NCBI GenBank assembly: GCA_028554795.2
Contig: CM068838.1
Span: forward strand, 131,511,428-131,575,427
Source of the DNA: Sinohyriopsis cumingii
Lineage: Eukaryota; Mollusca; Bivalvia; Unionida; Unionidae
Direction of reading: 5' to 3'
DNA length: 64,000 bases
The notes under the pieces were generated by a model. It had not been told where the DNA came from. It saw only the letters and a list, made by a program, of their open reading frames with translations, and searched no databases. The translations under genes were made by a program, and so were the position numbers. Shown here one piece after another: positions 45,041 to 62,852 of the stretch; positions within the stretch are counted from its first letter, which is position 1, and the number at the start of each line of letters is the position of its first letter.

Positions 45041-45043
45041 CGT

Positions 45044-45300
45044 AGTGAAAGGGGGCACATTAGGGACAAAGGGACTTACCATTAAAAACAGGGTCCAGGC
45101 ACTTTGGGGACTGTGTAAATTTAACATGGGGAAAACTGGCCCGGTACTTTGGGGACAATGGGAATTAACATGGGAATCTATTTTGGGTCAGTCTAGGGAC
45201 AAGGGAAATTTAACATGGGAGAAAAAAGCAATTCTAGGGACAAGGGGAATTGAACATGGGATTTTTTTTTTGTTGTTTTTTTTAAAAAAAATAAAAAAAT
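45044..45300 (+). repeat. Left terminal region with degenerate tandem repeats
   Basis: Begins AGTGAAAGGGGGCAC. About five degenerate units follow, built on AGGGACAAGGGAAATTTAAC ATGGGA, with CTTTGGGGAC variants, and then T- and A-runs (45261-45316). This is probably the left terminal inverted repeat; the right one would confirm it. Confidence 0.6.
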
Positions 45301-45339
45301 AAAAAAAATAAAAAAATGGGGTAGGCAATTGAAAGTCTA

Positions 45340-45377
45340 TCTCTTTTCGAGAACTATGAGTGACCCTGACAAGGGCC
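45340..45377 (-). terminator. Histone-type 3'-end signal, minus strand (stem-loop plus purine element)
   Basis: Reading the minus strand: CCCAAA, stem GGCCCT (45377-45372), loop TGTC, stem AGGGTC (45367-45362), then ACTCA, and 8 bases further the purine element GAAAAGAGA (45348-45340). The consensus of replication-dependent histone mRNAs is CCAAA-GGYYYU-loop-ARRRCC-ACCCA followed by a GAAAGAGA-like element bound by U7 snRNA. One G-U pair replaces G-C in the stem. It lies 12-23 nt after the stop codons of the minus-strand ORF. Confidence 0.75.
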
Positions 45378-45400
45378 TTTGGGTTTATGTTAATATGCCC

Positions 45401-45631
45401 TTAACATAAAGGGCATCTGCGGCATCTTCTTGTCCTCAAGCTGCGTCTTACTGAAGGGCCATAAATCAGAGTCCTCTTGAGGCATCCTTGTCTTTCCACA
45501 TACACTCTTCGTATCCACAGACTGGTGTCTGACTTGTGGACAACTGTCCACTTGGATCGGACATACATTAGCATGTCCGTCCTAAACATCATTGAAGAAA
45601 CAAGGGTGGAAGATTCAACGTCAGTCCACAT
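45401..45631 (-). CDS. Small ORF of the divergent pair (unrecognised)
   Basis: A 76-codon frame from ATG 45631, which is 45 nt after a TATA box (45683-45676, minus). It has a Val/Ser/Thr-rich start (MWTDVESSTLVSSMMFRTDM) and an Arg-rich C-terminus (RRSLRTRRCRRCPLC). A second minus-strand frame overlaps it and ends MPFMLRAY at 45390. A frameshift may therefore have altered the product. Neither frame matches a histone or other family I know. The histone-type 3' signal follows closely, so one or both frames define a short, probably unpolyadenylated mRNA. The strand is opposite to most genes of the element. Confidence 0.5.
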   Translation of the reverse strand: MWTDVESSTLVSSMMFRTDMLMYVRSKWTVVHKSDTSLWIRRVYVERQGCLKRTLIYGPSVRRSLRTRRCRRCPLC

Positions 45632-45675
45632 CTTGAGGCAACGAGAACAGATGAATCAATGCAGTGAACTGCGCT

Positions 45676-45802
45676 TATTTATAGGCAGAGGTAGGATTGA
45701 AACGGATTGAGTTTGTTGACCAATCCAAACACGCGTTACAAAATTCAGTCAGCTCGCATCCAATCCGAAGAGAGCAGTCTGTGACGTCACGTGGTCTATA
45801 TA
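45676..45802. promoter_or_regulatory. Divergent histone-gene-like promoter
   Basis: Within 130 bp: TATAAATA on the minus strand (45683-45676), two GGATTGA elements (about 45693-45708, CAATCC on the minus strand), two CCAATCC boxes on the plus strand (45720 and 45760), a CRE TGACGTCA (45782-45789), an overlapping E-box CACGTG (45788-45793) and TATATA on the plus strand (45797-45802). The four CAATCC elements are arranged two facing each way. Compact back-to-back TATA plus CCAAT promoters are typical of paired histone genes. Confidence 0.7.
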
Positions 45803-45850
45803 GATTCGCTAGCGCTTGTGTGCAGTTAAAATTTGCGACAGTGATTCAAC

Positions 45851-46415
45851 ATGACGGAAACTCAGAAAATGATCCATTGGGGTGCACCAGCAGTGGAGAC
45901 CACACAAGGGAACCCGGACTTACTTTCAGAAGAGGTAAATTGGGATTTTGTGGATTTTCTTACCTCGCAAGAATTTGTTCCGGAACCTTCGTCACCTTCT
46001 TCATTACCGCAAGTGGAGAATTTTAGACAGAGACAGAAAGAAGAATTGGAGAAATTTATACAACGACAAAAGGAAGCGGAACAAGCTTTTCTCCTACAGC
46101 AACAGCAGCAAGAAGAAGAGGTAAGAAAAAAACAACAAGAAGTAGCACAAAGAACAAGAGGGTGAAAATCAAACGGTCACGGTACTGTTGGACATTTTAG
46201 CGGAGTTAAGAAGTCTGAAACAAATGTATCAGACTTCTTTATTACGACCGAAGAGAATACGACCTTCCCGAGCTAAACACGCCAACCCTGTGACTAAGCC
46301 TATCGTACCACCCTTAGTGATTTCAACCAAATCATCATCATCATCAACAGTACGCAGTCCAGAAGTAGGCCTTGGCCGTGGCAAAGGCTTAAGGCAGTTA
46401 AAGTTGATTGCTTAA
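45851..46415 (+). pseudogene. Acidic/Gln-rich protein of the divergent pair, one frameshift
   Basis: Starts at ATG 45851, 49 nt after TATATA. The first frame (to 46165) gives an acidic, aromatic N-terminus (SEEVNWDFVDFLTSQEFVPE), then a long Gln/Glu/Lys-rich coiled-coil-like helix (FRQRQKEELEKFIQRQKEAE). The second frame (in use by 46188, stop at 46415) gives LDILAELRSLKQMYQTSLLR, a basic PKRIRPSRAKHA segment and a Ser-rich, basic end. A one-base gain between about 46120 and 46165, near an A-run, separates the frames. No family recognised; the layout (acidic, coiled coil, basic) resembles a nuclear regulatory or DNA-associated protein. The histone-type stem-loop starts 21 nt after the stop. 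Confidence 0.6.
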
Positions 46416-46436
46416 ACTCACCCCTACACCAAAAAA

Positions 46437-46474
46437 GGCCCTATTCAGGGCCACCCACGTCTCTCGAAAAGAGA
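46437..46474 (+). terminator. Histone-type 3'-end signal, plus strand (stem-loop plus purine element)
   Basis: CACCAAAAAA, stem GGCCCT (46437-46442), loop ATTC, stem AGGGCC (46447-46452), ACCCA (46453-46457), then GAAAAGAGA (46466-46474). The stem is perfect, the flanks match the histone consensus, and only the first loop base differs from the usual U. The purine element is at the distance used by the histone downstream element. The whole 3' segment through TTTCAATTGCC is shared with the minus-strand signal at 45340, forming an inverted repeat around the gene pair. Confidence 0.85.
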
Positions 46475-46693
46475 TCAACTTTCAATTGCCAATAACTCAA
46501 AAAAAAGACCCATTTTACCCCTATAGTACGTGTCTGTGTATGAGTGTGTGAGTGTAGGTTCTTATTTTAAAATCAAAACCAAAGACACTTACCTTTTTAT
46601 ACCTAATTTTTTCTTTTATCAATATTTACAATCCAATTCACAATTCACAACAGAGCACTTTAAAAAGTTCTTACACTCCTTCTGTCTCATTGT

Positions 46694-47274: not shown

Positions 47275-50200
47275 ATGAAACGATCCTATTCATTCAAGAA
47301 GAAAGAAGAAGAAAGTAAGAGGCAGAAACGTGATCTATCGCCTCGTACCAGGGCTGAAGTCTTGGCACAAATTCATGCCAGTGATTTTGAAGAGGGCATG
47401 AGTGAACCAGAATCCAAACCCTCTAAACAAAGTTCGCCACACTTAGTCAACCCTGAAAAATACTATTCCATTCGAGAGACGGAAAAGCGCTCCTCTAGAA
47501 AATCTAGAACCACGGCTTACAAATACACGGTGAAGTTTAAAGATTTCAAGTCCGAAGTACCGTTAGAGAAAGCAGAAGGGTTCATCACTGGGGTGTGGGA
47601 TTCTTTGCTCACCACACTCAAGCGACAATGTCAACCCAAAGAAGACGATCGCGTGAGACTCTCCATACAACACGACGGTTTGAAATCCCCTGTTTGGATC
47701 GAGTTTAGCACCCCTACAGAATTGACCGCTTCCAAAGTCATGGACAAGATTCAACACGTGCAACAATCCAATGACCAGTTTGACATCACCGATAGAAAAG
47801 CCACACTGGACATGACCCACGTCTCTCCTCCTCAAGGGACCGGACAACGCAGTAAGGTGTTATTGGTGAAAGACCTTCGCAGCACCAAAAAGAGTCTCGT
47901 CCAAATTCACAATTCTCAAGACCAGATGTGTTTAGCCCGAGCCATCGTGGTGGGACGAACCTATGCCGACAAGAACGACACGGCAGAATGGAAAAGAGAC
48001 TGGGAGAACATTCGGAAATCGAACTGAGCCAAACAACGAAGTGAAGCAGAACTCCTGTTGCAACAAGCCGGCCTGTCCAAAGACACACCCTGCGGCATTC
48101 CTGAAATGCAAAAATTGCAAGATGTCCTAGCTCCATTCTACACCTTGAAAGTGCACCCTCAAGAAGTGCGCGGACCTCTGTTGTTTCGAGGGAAAGACTT
48201 TAAGGACGGAAAATACATTCATGTCTATTATCACGATGACCATTTCGATACCATTACCAGTATCACCGGATTCCTGGGATACAGTTATCACTGTGAGAAA
48301 TGTGACCATGGCCATAAAAATCGAGAGCAACACAAACATTGCGGATCGAAATGCTCAGGATGTTTGGCCTCTCTACCCTGTCTGAGCGAAGGGCAAAAAC
48401 CATTGCATTGTCCTGCTTGTCTGCGCACGTTTGTCAGCCCTTCCTGTTACCAACAACATCTGAAGACGCAAGGTTCACAGCAGAAATGTGCTTGTCAACT
48501 CCTGAGATTGTGCCCTACGTGTGGACAAGGCATACGTACCAATAATGCCAAGGCACACGTATGTTCAGGAAAGAAAAAATGTCACATTTGTCACCACATC
48601 GTGGACTTGGAACACCAATGCTACGTGCAAAAATACCAATCCCCACCAGAGAAAGAGGATGGACACAAGAAGAAAGGCAATTTCATCTTTCTCGATTTCG
48701 AATGCATGCAAGAGACCGGTATTCACATTCCTAATTTCTGCGTGGCTCATCGAGCGTGCGAGAAGTGCTTTCAAGAACCTATCTTCAGTCATTGCCCTCA
48801 CTGCAGCAAGATTCCCGGAGGGCGTGAAAAAATCTTTCGGGGACCGAACACGCTAGCCGATTTTGCTCAATGGGTCTTAGACCCCATCGACAAGACGTGG
48901 AGCCAAGAGGACATCGAACGTTACGGAGATTGTCATCGTCATGCCACGGTGATGGCTCACAATTTCTCCGGATACGATGGACAGTTTCTTTTGAGATACT
49001 ATACGGAACAAGGCACCGAACGTCCTAAAGTGACTTTGAACGGAGCCAAAATCATTTTCATGCAAGTGGGACAAGTGCAGTTTAAAGATTCGATGAGTTA
49101 CTTAGCCATGCCTTTGAGTCGAATGCCTAAAACATTTGGAATGACAGAAATGGATAAAGGGTACTTTCCACACTTTTTCAGTATGGAAGCCAATCAACAC
49201 GCCGTTCTACCCCATTTACCTGAGGCTCACTATTACGACCCTGACAACATGCGTACCGAACAACGAGAAGCTTTCTACGCTTGGTACCAGGCTCACGCCT
49301 CGGACCCTTTCGACTTTCAGGAAGAAATGCTGAAGTATTGTCGTTCCGACGTGGACATTTTACGACGTTGCTGTGGAAAATTTTTCGAGAACTGTTCATG
49401 GAACACGGAGGGGTCGATCCTTTGAAAGAAGCTTGCACCATTGCCAAAGCGTGTTCCTTAGTGTATCGACAACGATTCATGCCTGAAAACACCGTAGCTG
49501 TCATGAGTCCTCAAACAACCAATTTTTGTCAAACGTCAATACTCGGTCAAAGCCCTACGCTGGTTACATTACTTGTGCGACAAGGAAGACAAGTGGATTC
49601 AGCATGCCCGCAACGGAGGGGGCGAAAAGACCATCGGAACGCATTCGGTCGATGGCTGGGACTTAGAAAACCCCAAGATCGTGTACGAGTTTAACGGTTG
49701 CTTATTTCACGGATGTCCAGTCTGTTATCCTGACCGTGGCACTAAAAATCAGTTTTTACAACGAACCATGGAAGACTTGTACCAGGCCACTTGTCAGCGA
49801 CGCCTAAAGTTAGAACAGGAAGGATACCAAGTGGTGGAAATGTGGGAACACGAATACGATCACCGTTTGAAAACCGATCCCGAGTTTAAACGCCTTGTGG
49901 AAAGTTACCAGTTCATGGACCCCCTGAACCCGAGGGATAGTTTGTACGGAGGAGGGACCAATGCCACCGTTTGCTGTACCAAGCCGACGAAGAGAAAGGA
50001 GAACAAATCAAATACTTGGACGTGTGTTCGCTGTATCCCTACGTGTGCAAATATTGTCGCTTTCCTGTAGGGCACCCACAATTGTTGACGGAACACATCG
50101 ACCTGAAAAACATTCGACAATACGAAGGCTTGATCAAGTACAAAGTTTTGCCTCCCACGGACTTGTACCATCCCGTGTTACCTCACCATTGCCAAGGCAA

Positions 50201-51323
50201 ACTGATGTTTCCTTTGTGATGTACTTGTGCCGAAACGTGCAACCAAGATCAGCCTTGTCAGCACACCCAGGAAGAACGAGCCTTAACGGGGACGTGGGTT
50301 AGCGTGGAATTGTTCAAAGCTCTGGACATGGGACACCAACTGTTAGAAGTGTACGAAATTTGCCACTTTCCCAAGACACAACAATACCACAAGGGTGACC
50401 CCAGTCAGAAAGGCATTTTCGCCGACTACATGGATGCCTTTTTGAAACTGAAGCAAGAAGCCAGCGGCTATCCTTCCTGGTGTCACACTCCCGAAGACCA
50501 AAAGACATTCAAAGAGAAATACTGGGCACAAGAAGGCATTACTTTAGATCACATCGAGAAAAACGAAGGCAGGCGATCGTTTGCCAAAGTGATGTTAAAT
50601 TGCTTGTGCGGTAAAATGGCACAACGACCGTGTTTACCCAAGACGGAATATTTGACAGAACCTTCCCGCTACTTCCAGATGATTCACGACAAAACCAAAT
50701 ACATGAAACACGTGGACGTCGTTCGAGAGGATTTGATCTTGGTCAATTACGAAGAAGATCTGGACTTTGTACAAGACGACCCTTTTAGAAATGTCATCAT
50801 TGCGGCTTACGTGACAGCTCATGCTCGCTTAAAATTGTACGAAGCTCTAGAACTGTTACGGGAACGCGTCCTATACTTTGACACGGATAGTTGCATTTAC
50901 ATCCATCACCCGAGTCAACAGCACCCTGACATCGAAGGAGATCGTTTAGGAGCCTGGACAGACGAGCACCCCGACGACAAGATTCTAAGTTTCGTCAGTG
51001 GTGGTCCACAAAATTACGGCTACGAATACCCGGACCCACAAGAAGAAGTGCACACGACGTGTAAAGTGAAAGGATTGACTCTGAATTATCGTACCAGTCG
51101 AGTGGTCAACTTTGGGGCATTGAAAGAAGCCTTCCAGTCTGGAAAGGATGAACACTTTAAAGTGACCACCTATCAACCCAACAAGATTGTACGTTTACCC
51201 ACTCACCACATCGTCAGTCGACCCTTGGAAAAAGTCTATCAAATCGTGTACCAGAAGCGAGTGCGACTGCCCAACCACTTTACTTTGCCGTATGGACATG
51301 TTGGTATAAAACATTGGTTGTAA
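47275..51323 (+). pseudogene. Protein-primed family B DNA polymerase, nearly complete, broken
   Basis: About 1,340 codons replicate the linear element from a protein primer. Domains in order: a charged N-terminal domain (47275-48024); a cysteine/histidine-rich zinc region (about 48288-48630); exonuclease motifs FLDFECM (48688), HNFSGYDGQF (about 48958) and YCRSDVDIL (about 49336); a FNGCLFHGCPVCY segment (about 49690) typical of Polinton polymerases; palm motif A YLDVCSLYPYV (about 50012); motif B KVMLNCLCGK (about 50587); motif C YFDTDSCIYI (about 50875). Breaks: in-frame TGA at 48025 and 50217; single-base shifts near 49370-49385 (loss), 49520-49540 (gain) and 49960 (loss). All catalytic motifs survive, so the gene is either recently inactivated or affected by sequencing errors. 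TATA at 47221 is 54 nt before ATG. Confidence 0.93.
51305..51311 (+). promoter_or_regulatory. TATA box of first BIR gene
   Basis: TATAAAA 42 nt before ATG 51347, within the last codons of the polymerase gene. Confidence 0.5.
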
Positions 51324-51346
51324 GAGGATAGCCACCCACCAGAAGG

Positions 51347-51790
51347 ATGACTTCGCCACAGCAAGAATCGAGTGAGAAACCCGATGAGAACTCCAAGTTC
51401 AAACCCTACCATTTTCCGGTTTTCTTGCCTGACTATTGTGATTGTACCCGTCGATTGGACACGTTTCAAGCATGGCCTACGGATAGGAAAGGATTACCTT
51501 CATCGCATGTTTTAGCTAGAACAGGATTTGTCTACTTGGGACCTGAGTCAGGATTGGGATACGAAGTACAATGTTTCGCTTGCGGACTGAAGTTACGAAT
51601 GGATCTATGTATCTATAAAGATTCAGCTATTCTGGAACATACTCGATGGACTCCGCACTGCCCTTACCTTTCTATAGCCTTTCCACCCATGACATTACGG
51701 TACAATAATGACGGTACCTTAGAAACGGTACCTTCCAAAACAAGACATAAAAAAGGAACGATGTACAACCTTGAGACTGCATGCGACTAG
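51347..51790 (+). CDS. BIR-domain protein (IAP-like), first copy
   Basis: 147 codons with one BIR (baculoviral IAP repeat). Visible features: RRLDTFQAWP at the domain start, LARTGFVYLG, then the zinc ligands in VQCFACG and EHTRWTPHCPYL, giving C-x2-C-x17-H-x6-C. BIR proteins bind caspases or their activators and block apoptosis; IAP-type proteins are used this way by several DNA viruses. There is no RING domain, so ubiquitin-ligase activity is not expected. The short C-terminal tail is unlike known IAPs. It follows the polymerase by 23 nt and is followed by a second BIR gene. The frame is intact. Confidence 0.88.
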   Translation: MTSPQQESSEKPDENSKFKPYHFPVFLPDYCDCTRRLDTFQAWPTDRKGLPSSHVLARTGFVYLGPESGLGYEVQCFACGLKLRMDLCIYKDSAILEHTRWTPHCPYLSIAFPPMTLRYNNDGTLETVPSKTRHKKGTMYNLETACD

Positions 51791-51798
51791 TATAAAAA
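51791..51798 (+). promoter_or_regulatory. TATA box of second BIR gene
   Basis: TATAAAAA directly after the stop codon of the first BIR gene, 63 nt before ATG 51854. Confidence 0.6.
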
Positions 51799-51853
51799 GG
51801 GGCTATGGTCAAGATCGATAGTTCATTCTGACTACAAAGACCAAGCGAACAAG

Positions 51854-52488
51854 ATGAATACTTTCAGAGAAACACAAGACATGTTCAGACAGGTACACTT
51901 CAAGTGTGGGCTTCTGAAGTGGAATGCGATTGTGAGCCTTGCGATGGGAACGATGCTGTACGCTGTGACCTTAGCGATGCCGTAAAGCATCATCGGAACT
52001 TTGTTCTCACTACCCCTATCATGGAAAGTGATGCTGTGCGTGTCAAACCTGAGGGATGCGAAAGCGATGCCGCTCGTCCTCTTGGACATTTTACTGGGTT
52101 TCGTTTTAAAGGTGGATGTTCACCTTCACGTCTACCTCCCTACGGATGTCATCCAGCCCTGAGCAAACTCCTGTCCATGTCACCCAACCCTTATCGAAAC
52201 GAACCCGTGAAAGACGAATATTCGTTTCCTGTGCGTTTGTCGGAATACTGCGACTTTGAAAATCGTCTTCAATCGTTCAAAGGAAAATGGCCTAAGTATC
52301 TGGGAGGACCGACCCCCGAAGAATTAGCCAGAGCCGGATTGTTCTACTTGGGCGAAGGAGATAAAGGCAAGTGCTTCAGTTGCGGTGTGTCACTTCACCA
52401 CTGGGAACCGCAAGATTCGGCCTACGTAGAACATGCTCGATGGTCACCGAATTGTCATTACTTACCCTTAGTGGGACCGAGACATTGA
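51854..52488 (+). pseudogene. BIR-domain protein (IAP-like), second copy, probable frameshift
   Basis: The BIR lies in the C-terminal half: FENRLQSFKGKWP, LARAGLFYLG and the ligands KCFSCG with EHARWSPNCHYL (C-x2-C-x16-H-x6-C). The only ATG placed well after the TATA box (51854, MNTFRETQDM...) is in another frame from the BIR, which is open from 51832 but has no early ATG; the next in-frame ATG is at 52021. A one-base loss near 51900-51920 best explains this. Use of the internal ATG is the alternative. The region between has a repeated SDA-V/-A pattern (DAVRCDLSDAV, ESDAVRVK, ESDAARPL) of unknown meaning. No RING domain. Confidence 0.75.
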
Positions 52489-52510
52489 AGTAACTTACCA
52501 TAATCTGCTT

Positions 52511-52966
52511 ATGGATACTTTACAAGAGAACATTCGTGCTTTGCCTGTGGAGTTGAGAGAACGCATTTACCGAGAGCTGGTCAAAATGCAAGTCCAACGT
52601 AAAGAACAGTTGCATCCGTTACGTCACCGGTGTTTGAACCACTGGTACCTGAATGCTATACAAGGACTGATTGAGTTGAAAGTGTTCCATTGGAGAGACA
52701 TTGATCAACGACCCCCTGGTTATAAAAAGAATTGGTTTGGTATGGATGATTCTATCTACTACATTGTAAACGTACTGGATCCAATTCCAGAGGAAGAGTT
52801 AACGAATTACCAACATCTTTTACGCAATGTCAACTTAGTGAAAGAGGAAACTTCTGAACGAATTTTAATGTGTAGATTAGTGATGAAACGATTTAGATTC
52901 GACAATGAATTAAAACCATGTCTGTGCAAACGGTACATTTATTGTGTCAGACAAAAGAGGATTTAG
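52511..52966 (+). CDS. F-box-like protein, tandem copy 1
   Basis: 151 codons. Residues 9-24 (RALPVELRERIYREL) fit the F-box start 'LP.EL...I...L', which recruits target proteins to SCF ubiquitin ligases in hosts and in many large DNA viruses. The rest has aromatic and charged patches (HWYLNAIQGLIELKVFHW) and a basic end (KRYIYCVRQKRI) without a known substrate domain. The next gene is a paralogue: the first 120 bases of both genes are nearly identical, so duplication was recent or is maintained. F-box assignment rests on a short motif. Confidence 0.7.
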   Translation: MDTLQENIRALPVELRERIYRELVKMQVQRKEQLHPLRHRCLNHWYLNAIQGLIELKVFHWRDIDQRPPGYKKNWFGMDDSIYYIVNVLDPIPEEELTNYQHLLRNVNLVKEETSERILMCRLVMKRFRFDNELKPCLCKRYIYCVRQKRI

Positions 52967-52978
52967 TATGACCTATTC

Positions 52979-53470
52979 ATGGATACTTTACAAGAGAACA
53001 TTCGTGCTTTGCCTGTGGAGTTGAGAGAATGCATTTACCGAGAGCTGGTCAAAATACAAGTCAAACGTAAAGAACAGTTGCATCCGTTACGTCACCAGAT
53101 CTTTAACCACTGGTACCTGAATGATATAAGAGAACTGATTCGTCAGAAATTGTTTCAGTGGTCAGACACTGTTCAAAATTTTGAGGTCGCCAATGATCCA
53201 CGTGTTCATAATTTTGGTTACTTCGAGATTCACCTAGTGCAACGCATTGAGGAAGACAAGTTAAAGGATTACCAACATATTTTACGTGGAATCTACTTAG
53301 CGGAAGAGGAAGCTTCTAAACAAACTCTGACGTTTAGGTTACAGTATGCAAGATTTAGATTCCCTACTGGAGAACGAAGATCTCTGGCTAGAAAGTACGT
53401 GTATTGCATCCGAAAAAAAGAGAATATAAAAACAGGCTGCCATGCCACGACTTATGTCACATGTAATTGA
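52979..53470 (+). CDS. F-box-like protein, tandem copy 2
   Basis: 163 codons, starting 12 bases after copy 1. The N-terminal 35 residues differ from copy 1 at few positions; the middle has diverged strongly (QKLFQWSDTVQNFEVANDPR) while the pattern YQHILR(G/N)(I/V)(Y/N)LAEEEAS is kept. That contrast suggests a conserved docking end and a changing target-binding part. Its 3' end overlaps the next ORF, whose first ATG is at 53442. Confidence 0.7.
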   Translation: MDTLQENIRALPVELRECIYRELVKIQVKRKEQLHPLRHQIFNHWYLNDIRELIRQKLFQWSDTVQNFEVANDPRVHNFGYFEIHLVQRIEEDKLKDYQHILRGIYLAEEEASKQTLTFRLQYARFRFPTGERRSLARKYVYCIRKKENIKTGCHATTYVTCN

Positions 53471-53666
53471 ACAGATTCCGTGGAAGGAACTCAATGACCA
53501 TATACAAACCGTGGATCATTGCCATCAATTATTACAAGAACTGTATCCATCCAATTTGGGACGACGAATAGTGTGTGTCTTAGTGACTTGTTTTCTGGAA
53601 TTTCGTTTACCAGCCGATTCTTTGTGGACTCCTTACGAACAGTACTTACCACCCCATTCAACATGA
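53442..53666 (+). CDS. Small accessory ORF a (unrecognised)
   Basis: 74 codons (MPRLMSHVIEQIPWKELNDH ...), overlapping the end of F-box copy 2 by 29 bases. Contains CVLVTCFLEFRLP, a short hydrophobic stretch. Its stop TGA overlaps the start of the next ORF in ATGA, which suggests coupled expression. A TATAAAAA sequence lies just before it at 53433 but too close to the ATG for a normal TSS. Confidence 0.6.
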   Translation: MPRLMSHVIEQIPWKELNDHIQTVDHCHQLLQELYPSNLGRRIVCVLVTCFLEFRLPADSLWTPYEQYLPPHST

Positions 53667-53908
53667 AAGTGGTGCCTTTAAATGTTCACGAGAGACTCCT
53701 TTTGCTCAAAGCCTTACGTTTTCCTCTGGATAATTCTCGACCTCTACCGGAAAGAAAGATTCGTCAAATTTTAGCTACCCAAGACGTGTATGACGATGTG
53801 TGTGTAGCTTGTGACTTACACCCCCATTGGACAGATGTCCGTGACTGGAAGAAATGGGATTTTGAGGCTTGGACCCAAGAAGTGGCCCAGTATGCTCGAC
53901 AGTTGTGA
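53663..53908 (+). CDS. Small accessory ORF b (unrecognised)
   Basis: 81 codons from ATG 53663 (MKVVPLNVHERLLLLKALRF ...). Sequence is mixed helical with acidic and Trp-rich C-terminus (HPHWTDVRDWKKWDFEAWTQ). Starts in an ATGA overlap with the previous ORF and ends 17 bases into the next ORF. No domain recognised. Confidence 0.6.
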   Translation: MKVVPLNVHERLLLLKALRFPLDNSRPLPERKIRQILATQDVYDDVCVACDLHPHWTDVRDWKKWDFEAWTQEVAQYARQL

Positions 53909-54107
53909 TCCTTCCTTTCAACGTCCAAAGAAAAAAGTTACTTTTCAACCTGTGTTAGTGACGGTGCCAGAAGAACCCGTCACCCAGGACAGGACTGTCG
54001 TGGACATGTCTGAAAGACCCTTTCGGGAGGACACTTGTGTGACCTTACCCCCTATAGAACTGGTCAGAACATTACCCAAAACATGTTGTACACACACTTG
54101 TGTTTAG
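53892..54107 (+). CDS. Small accessory ORF c with a PP1-docking-like motif
   Basis: 71 codons from ATG 53892 (MLDSCDPSFQRPKKKVTFQP ...). KKVTF at residues 14-18 fits the RVxF consensus by which proteins dock to protein phosphatase 1; some large DNA viruses use such motifs to redirect PP1. The rest is Pro/Thr/Val-rich with a Cys-rich end (KTCCTHTCV), probably disordered. Short motifs occur by chance. A polyadenylation signal AATAAA follows at 54202. Confidence 0.6.
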   Translation: MLDSCDPSFQRPKKKVTFQPVLVTVPEEPVTQDRTVVDMSERPFREDTCVTLPPIELVRTLPKTCCTHTCV

Positions 54108-54201
54108 TCCACGTTAATGATTTTCATGTGCCTTTTATCGTTGTACTTAAGCCTTTGGCTTTTATGTATTTTTGTCCCTCGTATTCATGTTTAAAACATT
54201 C

Positions 54202-54207
54202 AATAAA
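54202..54207 (+). terminator. AATAAA polyadenylation signal, end of first gene block
   Basis: AATAAA 95 bases after the stop of accessory ORF c and before the ATPase promoter; separates replication/accessory genes from the packaging/virion block. Confidence 0.6.
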
Positions 54208-54223
54208 CGTGTCCTGAAAAAAG

Positions 54224-54231
54224 TATATAAA
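54224..54231 (+). promoter_or_regulatory. TATA box of ATPase gene
   Basis: TATATAAA 54 nt before ATG 54278. Confidence 0.65.
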
Positions 54232-54277
54232 CTCTCGTCTTGTTTGTTTCCGTGTCACAAGTGACATTCCTAACACT

Positions 54278-55932
54278 ATGGCTACTTCTGCTGTCTCTAC
54301 TCCCTCTTCCTCTACTGTCAAAGTCATCGACGAACACTTAGATCGTGCCAGTTGGGAGGCTTTGTATCTTCGCCATCCCTTTAACATGCTCATTGCTCGA
54401 CCTAGCGGTTCAGGCAAAACCGAATTCGTCAAACGTTTGATCGAACATAAACATCATTTGATCGATCGGCCACCTCAACGCATCGTGTGGTGTTACAAAG
54501 AGTGCCAATCGGCGTAAAGCCTCTTGCAAGAAAGTCAAGGCGATTCCATCGTGTTTGTGGAAGGCATTCCTAAAGAAGACGACGGCATCGTCTCTGACTC
54601 CCGTCAAACCCATTTGGTCATTTTCGACGACATGTTAGGAGAAGACGAAGAAATTAAACTGTGGTTCACGCGTAAAGGGCATCACCGTAATGCCAGTGTC
54701 GTTTACATCACCCAAAATTTGTTTCAACAAAGTAAAGCCCATCGCACCATCAGTCTCAATGCGCATTACGTGGTCTTGTTTAAAAGCCCTCGAGATAAAT
54801 CGCAAGTGCAAGTCTTAGCCAAACAGTTAGGAACGCCTTGGCTGACTCAGGCCTACGACGATGCCACTCAAACTCCACACGCCTATTTACTCGTCGATTT
54901 GAAACCTACGACCCCCGATGATTTGCGATTTCGTACCCACTTGTTTCACCACTGGTGCCAAGACGGAGGGCCTGTCCTGTACACGTCTCCGAGAAAGTCA
55001 AGGCGATTCCATCGTGTTTGTGGAAGGCATTCCTAAAGAAGACGACGGCATCGTCTCTGACTCCCGTCAAACCCATTTGGTCATTTTCGACGACATGTTA
55101 GGAGAAGACGAAGAAATTAAACTGTGGTTCACGCGTAAAGGGCATCACCGTAATGCCAGTGTCGTTTACATCACCCAAAATTTGTTTCAACAAAGTAAAG
55201 CCCATCGCACCATCAGTCTCAATGCGCATTACGTGGTCTTGTTTAAAAGCCCTCGAGATAAATCGCAAGTGCAAGTCTTAGCCAAACAGTTAGGAACGCC
55301 TTGGCTGACTCAGGCCTACGACGATGCCACTCAAACTCCACACGCCTATTTACTCGTCGATTTGAAACCTACGACCCCCGATGATTTGCGATTTCGTACC
55401 CACTTGTTTCACCACTGGTGCCAAGACGGAGGGCCTGTCCTGTACACGTCTCCGAGAAAGTCAAGGCGATTCCATCGTGTTTGTGGAAGGCATTCCTAAA
55501 GAAGACGACGGCATCGTCTCTGACTCCCGTCAAACCCATTTGGTCATTTTTGACGACATGTTAGGAGAAGACGAAGAAGAAATTAAACTGTGGTTCACGC
55601 GTAAAGGGCATCACCGTAATGTCAGTGTCGTTTACATCACCCAAAATTTGTTTCAACAAAGTAAAGCCCATCGCACCATCAGTCTCAATGCGCATTACGT
55701 GGTCTTGTTTAAAAGCCCTCGAGATAAATCGCAAGTGCAAGTCTTAGCCAAACAGTTAGGAACGCCTTGGCTGACTCAGGCCTACGACGATGCCACTCAA
55801 ACTCCACACGCCTATTTACTCGTCGATTTGAAACCTACGACCCCCGAGGATTTGCGATTTCGTACCCACTTGTTTCACCACTGGTGCCAAGACGGAGGGC
55901 CTGTCCTGTACACGTCTCCGTCCTCGACTTAA
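54278..55932 (+). pseudogene. DNA-packaging ATPase (FtsK/HerA-type) with tandem triplication
   Basis: The first 79 codons carry the Walker A loop (ARPSGSGKTEF, residues 40-50; the first Gly of GxxxxGKT is Arg here). An in-frame TAA at 54515 interrupts the gene; reading continues in the same frame with the Walker B segment HLVIFDDMLGE, a YITQNLF sensor-like segment and the C-terminus. From 54530 a 463-bp segment is present three times (54530, 54993, 55456). As 463 is not a multiple of three, each junction shifts the frame. Copies 1 and 2 look identical, copy 3 has a 3-bp insertion and a few substitutions and carries the natural stop at 55930. The ATPase drives DNA into the capsid in this virus group. 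Confidence 0.88.
54530..55921 (+). repeat. 463-bp tandem repeat, three units, inside the ATPase gene
   Basis: Units begin GAAAGTCAAGGCGATTCC at 54530, 54993 and 55456. Copy 3 differs by an extra GAA and single-base changes (for example AATGTCAGTG for AATGCCAGTG). The junction between units is CGTCTCC GAGAAAGTC. Confidence 0.95.
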
Positions 55933-55952
55933 CTTCACTTCACAAAAAAATC

Positions 55953-55960
55953 TATAAAAA
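55953..55960 (+). promoter_or_regulatory. TATA box of core-protein gene
   Basis: TATAAAAA 47 nt before ATG 56000. Confidence 0.6.
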
Positions 55961-55999
55961 CCTCAGACACTTTTCGTCTGTCTCACACACATTTTGAAC

Positions 56000-56944
56000 A
56001 TGACGTCCCTTCAGTCGCATCTTCCCGTCAAATTGATTCGTGCCTTGTACGACATCAGTCGAGAAAAAAATCCACAAACACGAGCTCGTGTCTTAGAAGC
56101 TAGTCTCAAAGAAGTCTTACGATGGTTCACGGTGACAGCACGTCAATTACTACAAGGAATCATTCAGATTCCTCATCAAAACAAACGCTTTTTTGATCGA
56201 AACAAAGTCGCTTTGACCCAACTGGCCGATCTCCGCATCGACACTCAAACCAAAAAACAAATCATTTTGAAACCTGGAGGGAGAGGTACTGTAGGAGGGG
56301 TCATCATTCGCTCTCTCTTAAGATGGGATCCTAATGCCCCCAAAGTTCTCCCCAAGAAAAAAGTCAAACGAAGCTCCAAGAAGAAGAAAAAGACCAGGTC
56401 CACAAGGAGAACTTCTCCAGTGGCGGTACCCTCCTCTTACCAGACACCACCCCGGAAAAAGAAAAGAAGCCCCCAGAAAAAGAAACAGAGAAAAAGTCCC
56501 CAGAAAAAGAAAAGTCCACAGAAGAAAGCTAGTCGCAAGAGAGGCACTTCGGCCAGGACGCAACCTTACACTCGCAATCCACGACCTGCCACGGCGGTGA
56601 CTGCGTCTCCGGCAGCCTCACGTTCATCCACTTCTCCGTTGATGACACCAAGAACTGAAGAGTACTTGGAGACCATGATCACACCAAGAACATCTCCGTT
56701 GATGACCCCAACAACTTCCCCAGTGGCAGGACCTTCCAATTTAGTGGCAGTGGCTGCTGCTCACAAAGTACCTTCTCCCAAAATCAAAGTCCAAGAAAGA
56801 TCGGGCATGTTACAAAGTTTACTGGATTTGTTCATGCAAGAACTGGCTCGATTTAGTCCGTTGCGTACCCCTGCACGACTTGTCATGCCTGTCCTGAAGT
56901 TGATACGACGTAAAGACAATCAGTGGCGACGCGTTCCAGTATAA
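56000..56944 (+). CDS. Large basic core/DNA-binding protein
   Basis: About 314 codons from ATG 56000 (MTSLQSHLPVKLIRALYDIS). The N-terminal 110 residues look folded and helical. The centre is a Lys/Arg/Ser/Pro array with repeated SPQKKK units (RKSPQKKKSPQKKASRKRGT), like histone H1 tails and other DNA-condensing proteins. Then come Thr/Pro repeats (SPLMTPRTEEYLETM, SPLMTPTTSPV) and a basic helical C-terminus. A role in neutralising or condensing packaged DNA is inferred from composition and from its place among virion genes. The frame is intact. Confidence 0.75.
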   Translation: MTSLQSHLPVKLIRALYDISREKNPQTRARVLEASLKEVLRWFTVTARQLLQGIIQIPHQNKRFFDRNKVALTQLADLRIDTQTKKQIILKPGGRGTVGGVIIRSLLRWDPNAPKVLPKKKVKRSSKKKKKTRSTRRTSPVAVPSSYQTPPRKKKRSPQKKKQRKSPQKKKSPQKKASRKRGTSARTQPYTRNPRPATAVTASPAASRSSTSPLMTPRTEEYLETMITPRTSPLMTPTTSPVAGPSNLVAVAAAHKVPSPKIKVQERSGMLQSLLDLFMQELARFSPLRTPARLVMPVLKLIRRKDNQWRRVPV

Positions 56945-56947
56945 AAA
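56940..56947 (+). promoter_or_regulatory. TATA box of pX-like gene
   Basis: TATAAAAA overlapping the stop codon of the core-protein gene, 61 nt before ATG 57001. Confidence 0.6.
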
Positions 56948-57000
56948 AAGGCCTGTGACCAAGTCGGGGTATCAGTGTTTTTGGTGCTGAAGACTCAAAG

Positions 57001-57407
57001 ATGTCACCCTCCAGAAAACATCCCTCTTCTAAACAGCCCCAAGGAAAAAAAAGAAAAGGACTGCCTCCTCGTTTAGTCAAACATGGGGACATGTTATCTG
57101 TCCTGTCCAAAGTTTCTCCACCTCTACGATATAAAAACTCATTCAATCACCCTCCAAAGAGGTCATCGATACCGTGTGCGAATGTTGTTTGAACGTCTTG
57201 AAAGGCACGATCCCTTTGTCCAAACACCAGAAACAATGCTTAGGCAAACATCGTCACGTTCTTCGCCAAATGGTTCAAAAGAAAATTCCCATTCGTCAAA
57301 AAAAGAAGATGTTAGTCCAACGTGGAGGCATTTTACCCCTCTTGTTCGGCCCCTTACTGAAATCAGTCTTGGGAACCATGTTGGGAGGACTGGTGGGAGC
57401 AAGATAA
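57001..57407 (+). pseudogene. Conserved small Polinton protein (pX-like), one frameshift
   Basis: The start (57001, MSPSRKHPSSKQPQGKKRKG) is basic. After a one-base loss near 57120-57135 the frame ending at 57407 gives VIDTVCECCLNVLKGTIPLS, a Lys/Arg-rich part and RGGILPLLFGPLLKSVLGTM. The 'CEC..N.LKG..PL......L..H...LR.......KKK.L.Q.GG.L..LL' pattern is one of the most conserved small proteins of Polintons and adintoviruses; the basic plus hydrophobic end resembles adenovirus pX/mu. It probably binds DNA or the inner capsid. The frame shift is next to a TATAAAAA string and an A-run. Confidence 0.75.
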
Positions 57408-57455
57408 AGAGGCATCGGAAGGCCCAAGATCTCAGAATCGACCCCTGACAACCCC

Positions 57456-58157
57456 ATGGAAGGACGAAAACTAGCTTTAGTGCCTTACAAACGATGGATG
57501 GAATACCATCGTTGGCAAGAACAACGCACCCCGCATTTACCTCCCAATCCCAATTTGAGCGAGATGTCCCAGTTACAACACGAATTGCAGTTCTTGATGG
57601 ATCGCCAAGATTTGTCCGAAACAGAGAAATCGCAAAAGTACGGTCAACTCTTGCAACGACTGCAACTCTTTCACCAGAAAGCTTTAGACGAAACAGCTCT
57701 ACCCACTCTGAAAGATTTTAAGACCTTGATGAAAAGTCCAGCACCATCATCACTACCACCACCACCACTACTACCATCAGCAGGGGTCACCAGAGATGCT
57801 ACCCCACGAAGACCTGAGGAAGAAGAGATGCGAGAAGTGTTTCAAACACCGTCAGCAGCTCCCATTTCGAGTAAGATTTCAGCATCCTTGTTGACCCCGT
57901 CCCCCACACCCCAACGAGAAGAAATGAAAGCTTGGGTTATAAAGATGATGTCCACTCCTCCTTCGACAGAAGTGAAAAAGAAAGAAGGGAAGCCAGAAGT
58001 GAAAAAAGAAAAGAAGACCAAAGCCATTTCATTGCCACCTCCACCACCACAACCATCGACTTCTACTCCCGTAGCCCATCGGACACGTAAATCCGTTTCT
58101 AAACCACCCTTTCGACCCACCCAAAGTAGCATCACCGAAGAATGGGTGACTTATTAA
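57456..58157 (+). CDS. Conserved Polinton protein with N-terminal 'LVPY' domain and Pro-rich tail
   Basis: 233 codons. Residues 1-90 (RKLALVPYKRWMEYHRWQEQ ... QFLMDRQDLSETEKSQKYGQ LLQRL) match a conserved Polinton/adintovirus protein that follows the pX-like gene and has 'LVPY..W', 'L...M..IL...DLSD.EK...Y.Q.LQR'. The rest is low-complexity Pro/Ser/Lys-rich (SLPPPPLLPSAGV, KKEGKPEVKKEKKTKAISLP) and probably disordered. Function not established; virion-associated role is inferred. Its last 16 bases overlap the start of the integrase gene. Confidence 0.7.
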   Translation: MEGRKLALVPYKRWMEYHRWQEQRTPHLPPNPNLSEMSQLQHELQFLMDRQDLSETEKSQKYGQLLQRLQLFHQKALDETALPTLKDFKTLMKSPAPSSLPPPPLLPSAGVTRDATPRRPEEEEMREVFQTPSAAPISSKISASLLTPSPTPQREEMKAWVIKMMSTPPSTEVKKKEGKPEVKKEKKTKAISLPPPPPQPSTSTPVAHRTRKSVSKPPFRPTQSSITEEWVTY

Positions 58158-59286
58158 CACACAAACAAACACAAAAAATGGAAAAAGTCTTAGCCAGCAT
58201 TTACTACGATCCCTCCCATCCTCCAGGTTACGCAGGAGTTCAAAAATTGTATCGTGCTGCCAAAACTCGACTGAAAAGTCTCCGTTTACCTCAAGTGCAA
58301 CGATGGTTACAAGAACAAGCTACCTACACTTTACGCAAACCCATTCGACGCAAGTTTGCCAGAAGTCGCACCCGAGTGGAAGGCATCGATCATCAATGGC
58401 AAGCCGATTTAGCCGATGTCTCTCATTTGGCCAGCTACAATCGTGGCTACAAATATTTGTTTTGTGTCATCGACGTCTTTTCCAAATTTGCCTGGGTCGT
58501 GCCCTTGACTTCCAAATCCAGCAACGAGTTAGTGCGAGCCCTGCAACGAGTGTTGAAACAAAGCGGTCGTCACCCTCTTCGATGGCAAACGGACAAAGGT
58601 ACCGAATTTCTGAACCAAGCTTTCCAAAAAGAATTAAAGAAACGTGACATTCATTTTTTTACCACCGAGAATCCCGAAACCGAAGCCAGCATCGTGGAAC
58701 GTTTTCAACGCACTTTGAAAGAACGCATGTGGAAATATTTTACGCATCACCACACTCTGAAGTACATCGACATCTTACCGCACCTGGTGCAAGCGTACAA
58801 CCAATCTTACCATCGAAGCATCGAACGTGCCCCGCAAGACGTGACTCCCGACAACGAAGTGTTGGTGTCTGAGGGCCTCTTTGGTACGTCCCCGACGAGG
58901 GCTGTCCCCAAGAAAAGTGGAGTGTTGGCCGTAGGAGATTGGGTGCGCATTGGCAAAACCAAACGCATTTCGACAAAGGTTACTTACCTAACTGGACGAC
59001 CGAATTGTTTCGTGTCACTGGACAAGTGCATGGCCGTCATCCTGCCGTCTATAAATTGGAAGACATGAACGGAGAAGTACTCAAAGGAACGTTTTATTTG
59101 CCCCAGTTACAACGTGTCACCAAAAAAGAAGACGACGTGTACAACATCGAAAGCATTCTCGAACGCAGAACCCGTAAAGTGGGCAAACGACGTGTTAAAG
59201 AAGTCAAAGTACGTTGGAAAGGATATCCACCCAGTTTTGATTCTTGGATCAACGCTTCGCAAGTCATCGACTATAAAAAGAAGTGA
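58142..59286 (+). pseudogene. Retroviral-type integrase with chromodomain, one frameshift
   Basis: The first frame (58142-59068) has the DDE core: Asp89 in WQADLADV, Asp151 in QTDKGTEF and Glu186 in SIVERFQRT, with the D,D-35-E spacing of retroviral integrases. A one-base loss near 58955-58970 moves reading to the frame that ends at 59286, which gives an SH3-like barrel (LPNWTTELFRVTGQVHGRHP) and a chromodomain (YNIESILERRTRKVGKRRVK ... WKGYPPSFDSWI, about 59140-59270). The chromodomain has the Trp and aromatic cage residues used to read methylated histone tails, so insertion may be steered to heterochromatin. The enzyme joins the ends of the element to host DNA. Confidence 0.92.
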
Positions 59287-59291
59287 CCATC

Positions 59292-59702
59292 ATGCCCTTT
59301 CACACAAACGCAGCTACGTCGACCACTCCTTCACCCAGTTCTTCTCTGCAAGATTTACAAAAACAACCCTTGTGGGTGTGGTGTGGAGAACGTGTGCCTA
59401 AAACGCAAATCGTCTTTTTCTGCCAAATCTTCGTGGTGTATTGTGTCATCGGGGCAGCCATCGCCAATTTGAGTTTGCAACAAGGAGACAAACAATTGTG
59501 GACCATTTTATTGAGCAGTTGCATCGGTTACCTGCTTTCCAATTCCTCCCTGAAATTCTCCTCGAACGGGAACCACGGGAACCTTGTGTCCAGTGCCAGT
59601 GCCAGTCACCACTCCAACAACAATAACAACCCCATTTTGAGCGGAGACACGCCTCTGACGTTCAGTAACCCCTCGGACAGCCACAGAACTCTGGAATTAT
59701 GA
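59292..59702 (+). CDS. Membrane protein with two transmembrane segments
   Basis: 136 codons from ATG 59292 (the stop of the integrase is 8 bases upstream). Two hydrophobic helices, IVFFCQIFVVYCVIGAAIAN (about residues 40-59) and LWTILLSSCIGYLLSN (about 67-82), are followed by a Ser/Asn-rich tail. The 'VFFCQI....I.....L....G...LW..LLSS.LGYLLPN' pattern occurs in the same position, just before the minor capsid gene, in other Polintons. Role unknown; a virion or host membrane protein is possible. It overlaps the next gene by 4 bases (ATGA). Confidence 0.75.
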   Translation: MPFHTNAATSTTPSPSSSLQDLQKQPLWVWCGERVPKTQIVFFCQIFVVYCVIGAAIANLSLQQGDKQLWTILLSSCIGYLLSNSSLKFSSNGNHGNLVSSASASHHSNNNNNPILSGDTPLTFSNPSDSHRTLEL

Positions 59703-60587
59703 GTCACCAAAACCATTTTTACTTAACCTTACCCAGTGACAGTTCCATGGAGGTGTTTCCCCACAACACGTTGTGCTGTTACACGGCCAAATTACCTCAG
59801 GTCATCCCATTAGATCAAGAAGCCCATTGGGAAGTGGCTTTGGTAGAAATGATTTACCCAACACAAATCAAAAACATCACTGAAACTCAAAACACTTTTG
59901 AGGTCGAAATTCTGGACCCAACAGTGCAGCAAACCATGATGACCACTCCTCAACTTTAAAATTAACCCAGGCCATTATTTTAGTGGTCAACATCTGGTGG
60001 AGGCCATCACTGACAAATTCTATGCAGCATTTGACAAAGTTCTGACCACACTAAAAAAACGTGTCACCATTGAGTACCACAAACTGTCTCTCCGTCTACT
60101 CATCAAATTTGAAAGTGAGGAAAAAAGTATACGTATTAAATTTTGCCCTGAATTGTATGACATTTTGGGTGGAGACCTCAATATGGTCACGGATAAGCAG
60201 ACCAAAAAGATTGAGAAAGCAGAGATTGACAACAACGGGCATTTTGCGAGGTATTTTCGTTTCCCGGTAGAACTGAACCAGGGACTGAATTTGATGTTTG
60301 TGTACTCCGATGTGGTGGAGTATAACGTGGTGGGACACACCTCCGTGCCGTTACTGCGTGTCATTCCTTTCAAAGTAAATTCTGCCACGAACACTGACGA
60401 GGAAGGTGGAAACACTTACCACGTCCACCGCGAACTTGTACATCCTCATTATTTGCCTGTCAGCAAGTCGTATTTGGACACGGTCAACATTGCTATAAAA
60501 GGAGATTTCGGACAAAATATTCCATTCACCAAAGGAAAAGTCACGGTGAAACTCCATTTTCGAAAACGGTTCTCTAGCGACTCGTAA
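59699..60587 (+). pseudogene. Minor capsid (penton) protein, one frameshift
   Basis: The first 86 codons (MSHQNHFYLTLPSDSSMEVF, NTLCCYTAKLPQVIPL, HWEVALVEMIYPTQI) are the signature N-terminus of the single-jelly-roll minor capsid protein of Polintons. A one-base gain near 59945-59960, at a T/A-run, changes frame; the rest (59960-60587) includes KFCPELYDILGG, LNLMFVYSDVVEYNVVGHTS, VPLLRVIPF and KVTVKLHFRKRF, matching the family to its end. The penton forms capsid vertices. It lies upstream of the core and major capsid genes. Confidence 0.9.
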
Positions 60588-60590
60588 GTC

Positions 60591-61016
60591 ATGTATCCAG
60601 TGTACCGAGGGGTTGCTCGACAGCGAGGACACGGTTTAGGAGATATGTTGAAATCGGCCTTTCGTTCGGTGGCTCCGGTGTTGAAACCGATGGTGACACG
60701 CGGATTGCACGCCTTGAAAGATGCGGCACTGACGCAAGGCAAAGAATTTCTCCAAAATGTCATCATCGACAAACAAAACCCTAAAGAAGCCTTCATGAGG
60801 GCAGGCAAAAATGTCTTGCTGCAAACGGGCAAAGACCTTTTGGGCCGACGAGAAACATCTATAAATGCCCTGCACGCTACCGAATCAGGCATTCAGCAAG
60901 GACAAGGCAGAAAGAGACGACGAAGAAAACACCCTTTTACCAGACTTCACACGTCTAAAGCTAGAAAGACAAAGAAAAGAAGAACCATTCGAGACTTAGA
61001 CGTTTTCGATTATTGA
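60591..61016 (+). CDS. Adenovirus-type core protein (pVI/pX-like)
   Basis: 141 codons. The N-terminus (MYPVYRGVARQRGHGLGDML then SAFRSVAPVLKPMV) has the 'G.G.GD.L....R.V.P......' pattern of adintovirus/Polinton core proteins placed between the two capsid genes. The middle is amphipathic helical, and the end is strongly basic (RKRRRRKHPFTRLHTSKARK). Functions suggested for this type are linking genome and capsid or membrane disruption on entry; here only composition and position are seen. The frame is intact. Confidence 0.75.
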   Translation: MYPVYRGVARQRGHGLGDMLKSAFRSVAPVLKPMVTRGLHALKDAALTQGKEFLQNVIIDKQNPKEAFMRAGKNVLLQTGKDLLGRRETSINALHATESGIQQGQGRKRRRRKHPFTRLHTSKARKTKKRRTIRDLDVFDY

Positions 61017-61029
61017 GACACAGAAAAAA

Positions 61030-62329
61030 ATGATGCACCGAGAGTCATGCGCTTGTTCCAAGTCGGAAATGGATATGTTTGCCCTGCCACCTACCATGAT
61101 GACAATGCAAGAATCCCAAAGGGTGGAATTTCACCCCGTCTCCTCATTGACAGATTCCGCTCCCATCGAGTTTGAAATCAAGGGACAGCCCGAAGATTAC
61201 ATCGATCTGAATAGCAGTTATTTGTACTTGAAAGTCAAAGTTCTAGATAAGGATGATGGTGGAGTAGAAGACACTGAGAATATAGCTCCCGTCAACAATT
61301 TCATGCATTCCTTGTTCAGCTCAGTGGACTTGTATTTGAATAACAAACTGGTCTGCAGCAGCATGGATACTTACCCTTACCGTGCCTACCTGGAAAATCT
61401 CTTGACGTACGGAATAGATGCCAAGAATACTCATCTCGATGCCTGTGTGCTATGGGAACCTGACGAATCGAAGGAGTTTAACACATTAAATAAAAGCAAT
61501 GACGGCTTTGTGGAAAGACGAAGCAAAATCTTAAATAGGAAGAGTTTAGAACTGATGGATCGTTTGCATTTGGACATGTGGTTGCAAGAGAAATATTTGC
61601 TGAACGGGGTAAATGTTCGCTTGAGACTGAATCGTAGCAGTGCCGCTTTCCATTTGTTGGCTGATAGTACTGCCAAAAGCAAAATCGAGGAGGCCAAACT
61701 CTACGTACGACGCATGGAAGTGTTACCTAAAGTGGGAAACTACATCAGTCAAACGTTGAGCAGAACGACCGCCAAGTATCCCATACGACGCGTAGAAGTG
61801 AAAACGTTCACCATTCCCCGTAACCATCATTCCATGATCGAAGATCATCTGTTTCAAGGACAGTTACCCAAGCATTTAATCCTTGGTATGGTCTTGAATT
61901 CAGCCTTCAACGGAGCCTTCGCTGAAAATCCTTTCTACTTTCAACACTTCGACATGAAGAAAATCGAAGTCAGTCGCGATGGCAAGACCTTGTGTACCCA
62001 TCCTTTCGAACCTGACTTTGGTGACGCAAAGATGAATTACTTGAGATCGTACTTGTCCCTGTACGAAGCCACAAGAAAAATTAGGGACCAACACCAGTCA
62101 CGGCATTACGTACGAGGATTACGCAGGAGGCTATGCTTTGTGGGCTTTCGATTTCACTCCAGACCAAGGCAGCGACGAGGGACATTTCCACCCTATAAAA
62201 TCTGGCCAGATTCGTGTGGAACTTCAGTTTGCAAAGCCACTGGACGAGACAGTGAACGTCATCCTGTATGCAGAATTCGATAATACCATAGAAATCAACA
62301 GTTTGAGAGAAGTCATTCTAGACTATTAG
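61030..62329 (+). pseudogene. Major capsid (hexon) protein, one frameshift
   Basis: About 430 codons. The start has the family signature APIEFEIKGQPEDYIDLNSS YLYLKVKV (residues about 44-70) of the double-jelly-roll capsid protein of Polintons (the F54H12.2-like group). Other landmarks: INNFMHSLFSSVDLYLNNK-like segment VNNFMHSLFSSVDLYLNNKL (about 92-112) and YPYRAYLENLLTYG. A one-base gain near 62080-62095 shifts frame; the C-terminus then ends NVILYAEFDNTIEINSLREV, the usual end for the family. The frame in use before the shift runs to 62283 with a false tail. Trimers of this protein form the capsid faces. Confidence 0.93.
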
Positions 62330-62334
62330 AAGCT

Positions 62335-62835: not shown

Positions 62836-62852
62836 AGAAGAAAAAAAAAACC

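Follow-up and report, generated by a model that had tools for sequence, protein, structure and literature searches.

Why do genes that do not encode histones, carried by a mobile virus-like element, end in the way that replication-dependent histone genes end? We address this question for a stretch of 64,000 nt of the Sinohyriopsis cumingii genome (GCA_028554795.2, CM068838.1:131,511,428-131,575,427, forward strand; hereafter the window), which holds a copy of a Polinton (Maverick-type) element, a worn member of a large family. The 3' ends in question resemble the replication-dependent histone mRNA 3' end (RF00032) in having a 6-bp stem, a 4-nt loop, an ACCCA-type tail and GAAAAGA 13-14 nt after the stem. 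The genes that they follow share with histone mRNAs a short 3' UTR, an intronless ORF and the histone dialect of the host; unlike histone mRNAs, they are non-histone genes inside a mobile virus-like element. PMC6303110 describes histone mRNAs as the sole animal mRNAs, among metazoan protein-coding mRNAs, that end in a stem-loop and lack poly(A). Within the available text of the open PMC literature (including PMC2646287; subscription journals lie mostly outside it), no histone-type 3' ends were reported for Polintons, transposons or DNA viruses, and in this feature the element appears to differ from the Polintons described there. PMC6827988 reportedly likens a viroid loop to the histone stem-loop and mentions SLBP; this, too, is an RNA foreign to its host, but it is a non-coding plant viroid and not an mRNA 3' end. 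The histone-like proteins ('Histoid') that PMC11071296 reports for a tailtomavirus and for adomaviruses, of which one has adintovirus-like virion genes, are a separate matter from histone-type 3' ends.

The features of the window that the following analysis refers to are:

45042..45386, no strand: left terminal inverted repeat (TIR), identical to the inverted right end at 330/346 alignment positions (95%)
45324..45334, minus strand: motif TTTCAATTGCC downstream of the gene i downstream element, weak; in a similar position, host H2A and H2B carry CAATTTTG(CC)
45340..45348, minus strand: gene i histone downstream element (HDE) GAAAAGAGA, 13 nt after the stem; host histone genes place theirs alike
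45361-45357, minus strand: ACTCA after the gene i stem
45362..45377, minus strand: gene i stem-loop, GGCCCT TGTC AGGGTC with one G-U pair, worn; RF00032 25.9 bits
45401..45631, minus strand: gene i, a 76-aa ORF whose outward reading direction leads into the TIR; it has two relatives, 82-83% identical
45632..45850, no strand: divergent promoter region of genes i and ii, as judged by sequence matches
45851..46415, plus strand: gene ii, its frame broken in the window (45851-46165, remainder to 46415 in another frame)
46437..46452, plus strand: gene ii stem-loop, GGCCCT ATTC AGGGCC; RF00032 34.6 bits, above the cut-off
46453..46457, plus strand: ACCCA, the predicted end of the mature mRNA, following the rule in PMC7026596 that histone mRNAs are cleaved 4-5 nt after the stem
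46466..46474, plus strand: gene ii HDE GAAAAGAGA, starting 13 nt after the stem
46480..46490, plus strand: motif TTTCAATTGCC, common to the element copies, weak
47275..63413, plus strand: core block with PolB, two BIR genes, an ATPase region, rve integrase, candidate capsid genes and an adenain-like protease, all without histone-type 3' ends
63503..63508, plus strand: AATAAA, about 90 nt after the stop of the protease, the last core gene

The original prediction placed a stem-loop with HDE behind each of two oppositely directed genes, and both signals were recovered in that orientation by their coordinates, by RF00032 and by comparison with surrogates. Defined as six pairs, a 4-nt loop, an A after the stem and AAAAGA at the right distance, the full layout occurs twice in the window versus twice in total over 100 first-order Markov surrogates. 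When up to two mismatches were allowed, the pattern matched the window 4 times versus 0.81 expected, and 0/100 shuffles reached 4; one of the four matches is the antisense shadow of the plus-strand stem and one a chance match at 49 kb. Covariance-model scores were expected to exceed background. This held for the gene ii stem-loop (E 2.7e-6 over the whole window), but the gene i stem-loop (E 0.0017 over 21 kb) taken alone lies below the curated cut-off of 34. RNA folding gave -11.6 kcal/mol for the gene ii stem-loop, with 0/200 shuffles folding as well, and -8.7 kcal/mol for that of gene i, with 23/200 shuffles at least as stable. Inverted arms of 57 nt (82%) show that one 3' end is related to the other. 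Their loops, ATTC and TGTC, look like products of decay, because the loop reads TTTC in 65/70 distinct sequences of the signal from the element family. The prediction of two oppositely directed ORFs stood for the 76-aa gene i, but gene ii is frame-broken in this copy.

The element resembles Polintons/Mavericks, including adintoviruses, in its PolB, rve integrase, A32-like ATPase, candidate adenain-like protease (a weak match) and long TIRs. Its assignment to the Polintons follows from the hallmark genes, and 'adintovirus-type' is a putative label. Pfam identified PolB (PF03175, E 3.9e-13) and the rve integrase (PF00665, E 3.5e-14), and the A32-like packaging ATPase scored over the cut-off in another copy, L046 (PF04665, E 1.3e-7). 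The protease matched Peptidase_C5 below the Pfam cut-off (E 0.036), and the candidate capsid protein had no Pfam match. TTTTGTA adjoins both ends of the element, consistent with long TIRs flanked by a target-site duplication in approximately this register. Two genes with BIR domains (inhibitor of apoptosis) lie inside the core block at 51347-52488, and the ATPase region at 54632-55932 has been triplicated locally, with three nearly identical ORF segments that overlap in tandem. Elsewhere in the window, integrase-like ORFs of another degraded element were noted by eye at 33023-33633, with no histone-type stem-loop there, and a tRNA-like match of 31.4 bits at 40335-40407 is perhaps a tRNA-derived repeat.

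We found that both genes of the divergent pair carry the signal, as predicted, but that the element has five such 3' ends and not two: those of the left divergent pair (genes i and ii) and those of three tandem genes at the right end (R1, R2 and R3). The latter are small ORFs beyond the protease, each followed by a stem-loop and HDE. In the window copy they fall about 0.1, 0.9 and 1.7 kb beyond the end of the window, in the adjoining stretch L042, where their stem-loops score 31.0, 30.8 and 38.2 bits with RF00032, only R3 exceeding the cut-off of 34. The inner end of the left TIR contains the gene i histone-type 3' end; given the match between this TIR and the inverted right end, the terminal repeats enclose the outermost left and right signals alike. 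The five short terminal genes are intronless in the copies read. In one copy (L041, 5006-7394) the left-end pair is present twice, and 3/4 of its genes have the stem-loop; a truncated gene ii does not. ORFs resembling a second, different Polinton-like lineage adjoin copies of the element in L045 (4896-9333) and L048 (232-2422). By their appearance they include ATPase-like and integrase-like ORFs of their own, and the parts seen contain no histone-type stem-loop.

To see how widely the signal occurs, we turned to the rest of the genome. An RF00032 scan, in which 75 of 589,472 candidates were scored, gave 75/75 matches over the cut-off. All 36 of these that were read (the 30 best and the 6 weakest) sit in copies of the Polinton, and no host histone gene was among them. 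From 88 raw matches, 86 had an AAAAGA-like HDE, and one chance match was dropped; this left 85 distinct stem-loops, each with an HDE, over the five gene 3' ends: 25 at gene i, 23 at gene ii, 21 at R1/R2 and 16 at R3 (27, 23, 20 and 15 by another classifier). A GAAAAG-type HDE stands exactly 13 nt after the stem in 64/70 distinct sequences, and in the remaining 6/70 it is shifted by one, changed or lost; some copies lack the HDE, such as gene i of L002. An ORF of at least 60 aa ends no more than 60 nt before the stem-loop in 21/25 cases for gene i, 18/23 for gene ii, 11/21 for R1/R2 and 11/16 for R3. The distance from stop to stem-loop is mostly 15-40 nt (range 7-56), where single values may reflect another frame, as the script accepts any. 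Nearly all loci were found via a strong stem-loop nearby, and the copies are therefore a non-random sample. In a search anchored on the end of the gene ii ORF, in which the stem-loop was not used, 22/22 distinct copies had the stem-loop with at most 2 substitutions; 4 of these 22 are primary matches of the genome-wide RF00032 scan.

The stem is paired in 96.9% of 420 cells (70 distinct sequences) versus 1.2-65.5% in slid controls. The first pair is G-C in 48, A-U in 16, G-U in 1 and unpaired in 5 of the 70 sequences. It is the only pair that changes on both sides (16/70), and its A-U form belongs to R1/R2. Three of five covariation measures exceed all 500 shuffles; the other two, the number of pairs with a both-sides change and the number of pair types, were not above the shuffles. 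The covariation thus amounts to one G-C/A-U change, mainly between gene groups, and perhaps to a single event. Substitutions in the stem-loop amount to 2.1-2.6% in non-primary copies (n=49), and those in the upstream 3' UTR to 20% for R1/R2, 10% for genes i and R3 and 1.2% for gene ii, the last value being low because the ORF end itself is conserved. Among 155 stretches of 16 nt, the stem-loop ranks 16th in conservation for R1/R2, 41st for gene ii, 9th for gene i and 2nd for R3. These ranks reject the stem-loop as the single most conserved stretch and place it among the better kept ones. The expectation that related elements would keep the stem-loops was thus borne out in the genome copies and, apparently, in two diverged relatives described below.

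We compared the element with the histone genes of its host. A histone search, in which 150 of 662 candidates were scored, found many of the genes in tandem repeats of about 8.3 kb; one repeat, read for the most part in two pieces, contains H3, H4, H2B, H2A and H1, all in one direction. In this repeat GAAAAG follows the stem after 13 nt in H3, H4 and H2B and after 14 nt in H2A and H1 (5/5 genes), and the purine-rich HDE of the element stands at the same spacing. The comparison that the original prediction had called for thus came out in its favor, the layout and the spacing being the same at the histone 3' ends. A model built from the five host histone 3' ends alone, without any element sequence (R2 model), was applied to 267 kb: the window, 16 stretches with or next to element copies, 2 histone pieces and 4 viral contigs. 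Besides the histone genes it found 27 element sites at 32.4-60.3 bits, scores clearly over background in agreement with the prediction; the next best match had 21 bits (E 0.62). By their flanks, all 27 sites are at the ends of terminal genes, some of them decayed, and none follows a core gene. The reverse model, built from the element (R1 model), picks out, over 6.6 kb, the 5 host histone 3' ends and nothing else (33-54 bits). It also finds the same 27 sites, most of which were in its training set, and over 224 kb (the window and 16 other stretches) it found nothing else above 16.1 bits. Past the HDE, the element and the histone genes have a weak CAATTTTGCC-like motif in common (4/20 comparisons with p <= 0.016, uncorrected, against mononucleotide shuffles). 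Several histone genes in L060 and L061 (G000:C531:13200-19800) have a CAATTTTG(CC)-like motif downstream of the HDE, which is possibly a third element of the host histone 3' end. For the host U7 snRNA, no match exceeded the Rfam cut-off of 34 among the 65 of 801,960 candidates scored; three weak matches, the best at 29.3 bits, were not accepted. Histone genes with clear HDEs exist, and the host U7 may be diverged.

Relatives elsewhere came from the protein database, which holds 19 homologous proteins of gene ii (56-91% identity, each from one contig of 0.9-2.3 kb) and 2 of gene i. One gene ii relative (P0009, 65% identity) runs past the usual stop and ends in WPISGPPTSLEKRYYVNCQFQ, and one gene i relative (P0021, 82%) runs past the usual end and contains TQKPFSGPLTLLENIYYVNCQ. 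In one frame, the stem-loop-HDE stretch of the window translates as RPYSGPPTSLEKRSTFNCQ. As both tails match this frame, the signal seems to be present in the diverged relatives, where, as far as the codons allow in a back-translation of two proteins, it seems to have a weakened outer or inner pair. Among viral contigs, PolB and gene ii had no relatives. The pattern RGCYCTTTTCAGRGCYACC had 4 matches there, which we attribute to chance, none having an HDE at the right place; on these 4 loci the histone-only model gave nothing up to E 5.

The core genes present a different picture. In the stretches read with both models, the histone-type signal was absent from them, and AATAAA stands about 90-115 nt after the protease in 4/4 copies seen (window/L042, L034, L038 and L047). 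AATAAA or ATTAAA stands no more than 400 nt from the stop in 1/15 core ORFs of the window (the protease), and in 3/24 when 9 ORFs of other copies are added (two proteases and, in L039, the zinc-knuckle gene). Around the stem-loops of the terminal genes (-40 to +160), AATAAA occurs at 13/85 ends and either hexamer at 15/85, and 8 of the 13 ends with AATAAA are A-rich gene ii ends. Fallback polyadenylation is thus possible for some terminal genes.

The terminal genes themselves are small. In other copies, gene i mostly has 76-77 aa and points outward, and gene ii has about 190 aa and points inward, ORFs of 183-195 aa preceding the stem-loop in 13/23 copies. Both are under coding constraint, with a dN/dS of 0.15 for gene i (20 copies with ORFs of at least 75 aa) and 0.50 for gene ii. 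Gene ii has an invariant NWDxVDFL stretch, a long helix and a basic C-terminal part; AlphaFold models one long helix in disorder (mean pLDDT 66.7, pTM 0.24), and the protein looks like a regulatory one. None of genes i, ii, R1, R2 and R3 received a function or a histone domain from Pfam; matches for ii and R3 (E 0.02-0.07) were below the cut-offs and were discarded.

We propose, with a probability of roughly 0.8, that the mRNAs of the terminal accessory genes of the Polinton are completed by the replication-dependent histone 3'-end pathway of the host, a reading drawn from the DNA sequence. SLBP would bind the stem-loop, U7 snRNP would pair with GAAAAGA, and CPSF73 would cut after ACCCA, yielding short, non-polyadenylated mRNAs. 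The stability and translation of such terminal-gene mRNAs would be largely confined to S phase, in which the replication enzymes and nucleotides of the host are available. The type of signal is known already; what appears to be new is its use in a virus-like element, for genes other than those of histones.

Under a rival reading, the element took its 3' module from a host histone gene, or the module originated a single time and was then duplicated within the element, and it has since been a mere passenger, the mRNAs being polyadenylated from cryptic sites. The five 3' ends of the element are indeed like each other and like those of the host histone genes, partly even past the HDE, and AATAAA near some stem-loops would supply such sites. 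We nevertheless consider passive carriage unlikely: the stem has stayed paired in nearly all cells with one both-sides change, the signal is seemingly kept in relatives whose proteins are 65% and 82% identical, and it stays close behind the stop codons of different genes. Passive carriage would also leave its absence from the core genes unexplained. Capture as the origin of the signal is compatible with its use.

The transcripts could also be decoys that titrate SLBP or U7 snRNP and so disturb the histone supply of the host, with expression of the short ORFs secondary. The several occurrences of the signal in each element and the large number of copies in the genome fit this. Here the coding constraint on genes i and ii and the existence of relatives elsewhere point the other way, as does the consideration that one strong signal would be enough for a decoy, and we regard this reading as very improbable. 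Least credible to us is a role of the hairpin in the DNA itself, for example when the terminal repeats are processed or the element is replicated or packaged, its likeness to the histone signal being incidental. The location of the outermost copies inside the TIRs would suit such a role, but 3/5 of the 3' ends lie outside the repeats, the signal stands on the sense strand after a gene with an HDE at histone spacing, and a model made from host histones only finds the element sites.

Returning to use of the host pathway, the arrangement of the element would amount to a plan with two classes of genes: regulatory genes of histone-like expression near the termini, and between them replication and virion genes whose mRNAs are polyadenylated. 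Adenovirus termini provide an analogy for 'early' genes, and by this analogy and by their position the terminal genes may be termed early. With odds that we place only slightly above even, the terminal regulatory genes would be made solely as SLBP-bound, non-polyadenylated S-phase mRNAs and the core genes as polyadenylated ones, the two 3'-end machineries serving as an early/late timer. If so, the terminal genes would be the first known case of non-histone genes that depend on the histone mRNA pathway. More generally, five non-histone genes with a histone ending would demonstrate that other genes, too, have access to the pathway, and would supply natural non-histone substrates for SLBP and U7 snRNP. 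A histone-type ending would give a DNA element a simple means of sensing S phase, and an RF00032 scan of Polinton termini is a sequence test that can be applied over animal genomes.

The left end also recalls a known gene arrangement. Divergent histone gene pairs of the H2A/H2B type have a divergent promoter with TATA and CCAAT and histone 3' ends on both genes. The region between genes i and ii is similar, with TATA-like sequences near 45678 (leftward) and 45797 (rightward), CCAAT at 45720 and 45760 and TGACGTCA at 45782, and with histone 3' ends on both genes. Unlike such pairs, the element proteins have no histone domain, and the five genes of the host repeat all lie in one direction. Upstream of the R genes (L034, L036, L038 and L042) we observed a common TTTTCC-TTCACGTCCGCGC-like block, which could be a common switch. 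It is followed by TATAA in 7/10 R-gene regions and by TTTAAG in the three R1 regions, and the block together with TATAA recalls, as a sequence resemblance, the promoters of histone genes.
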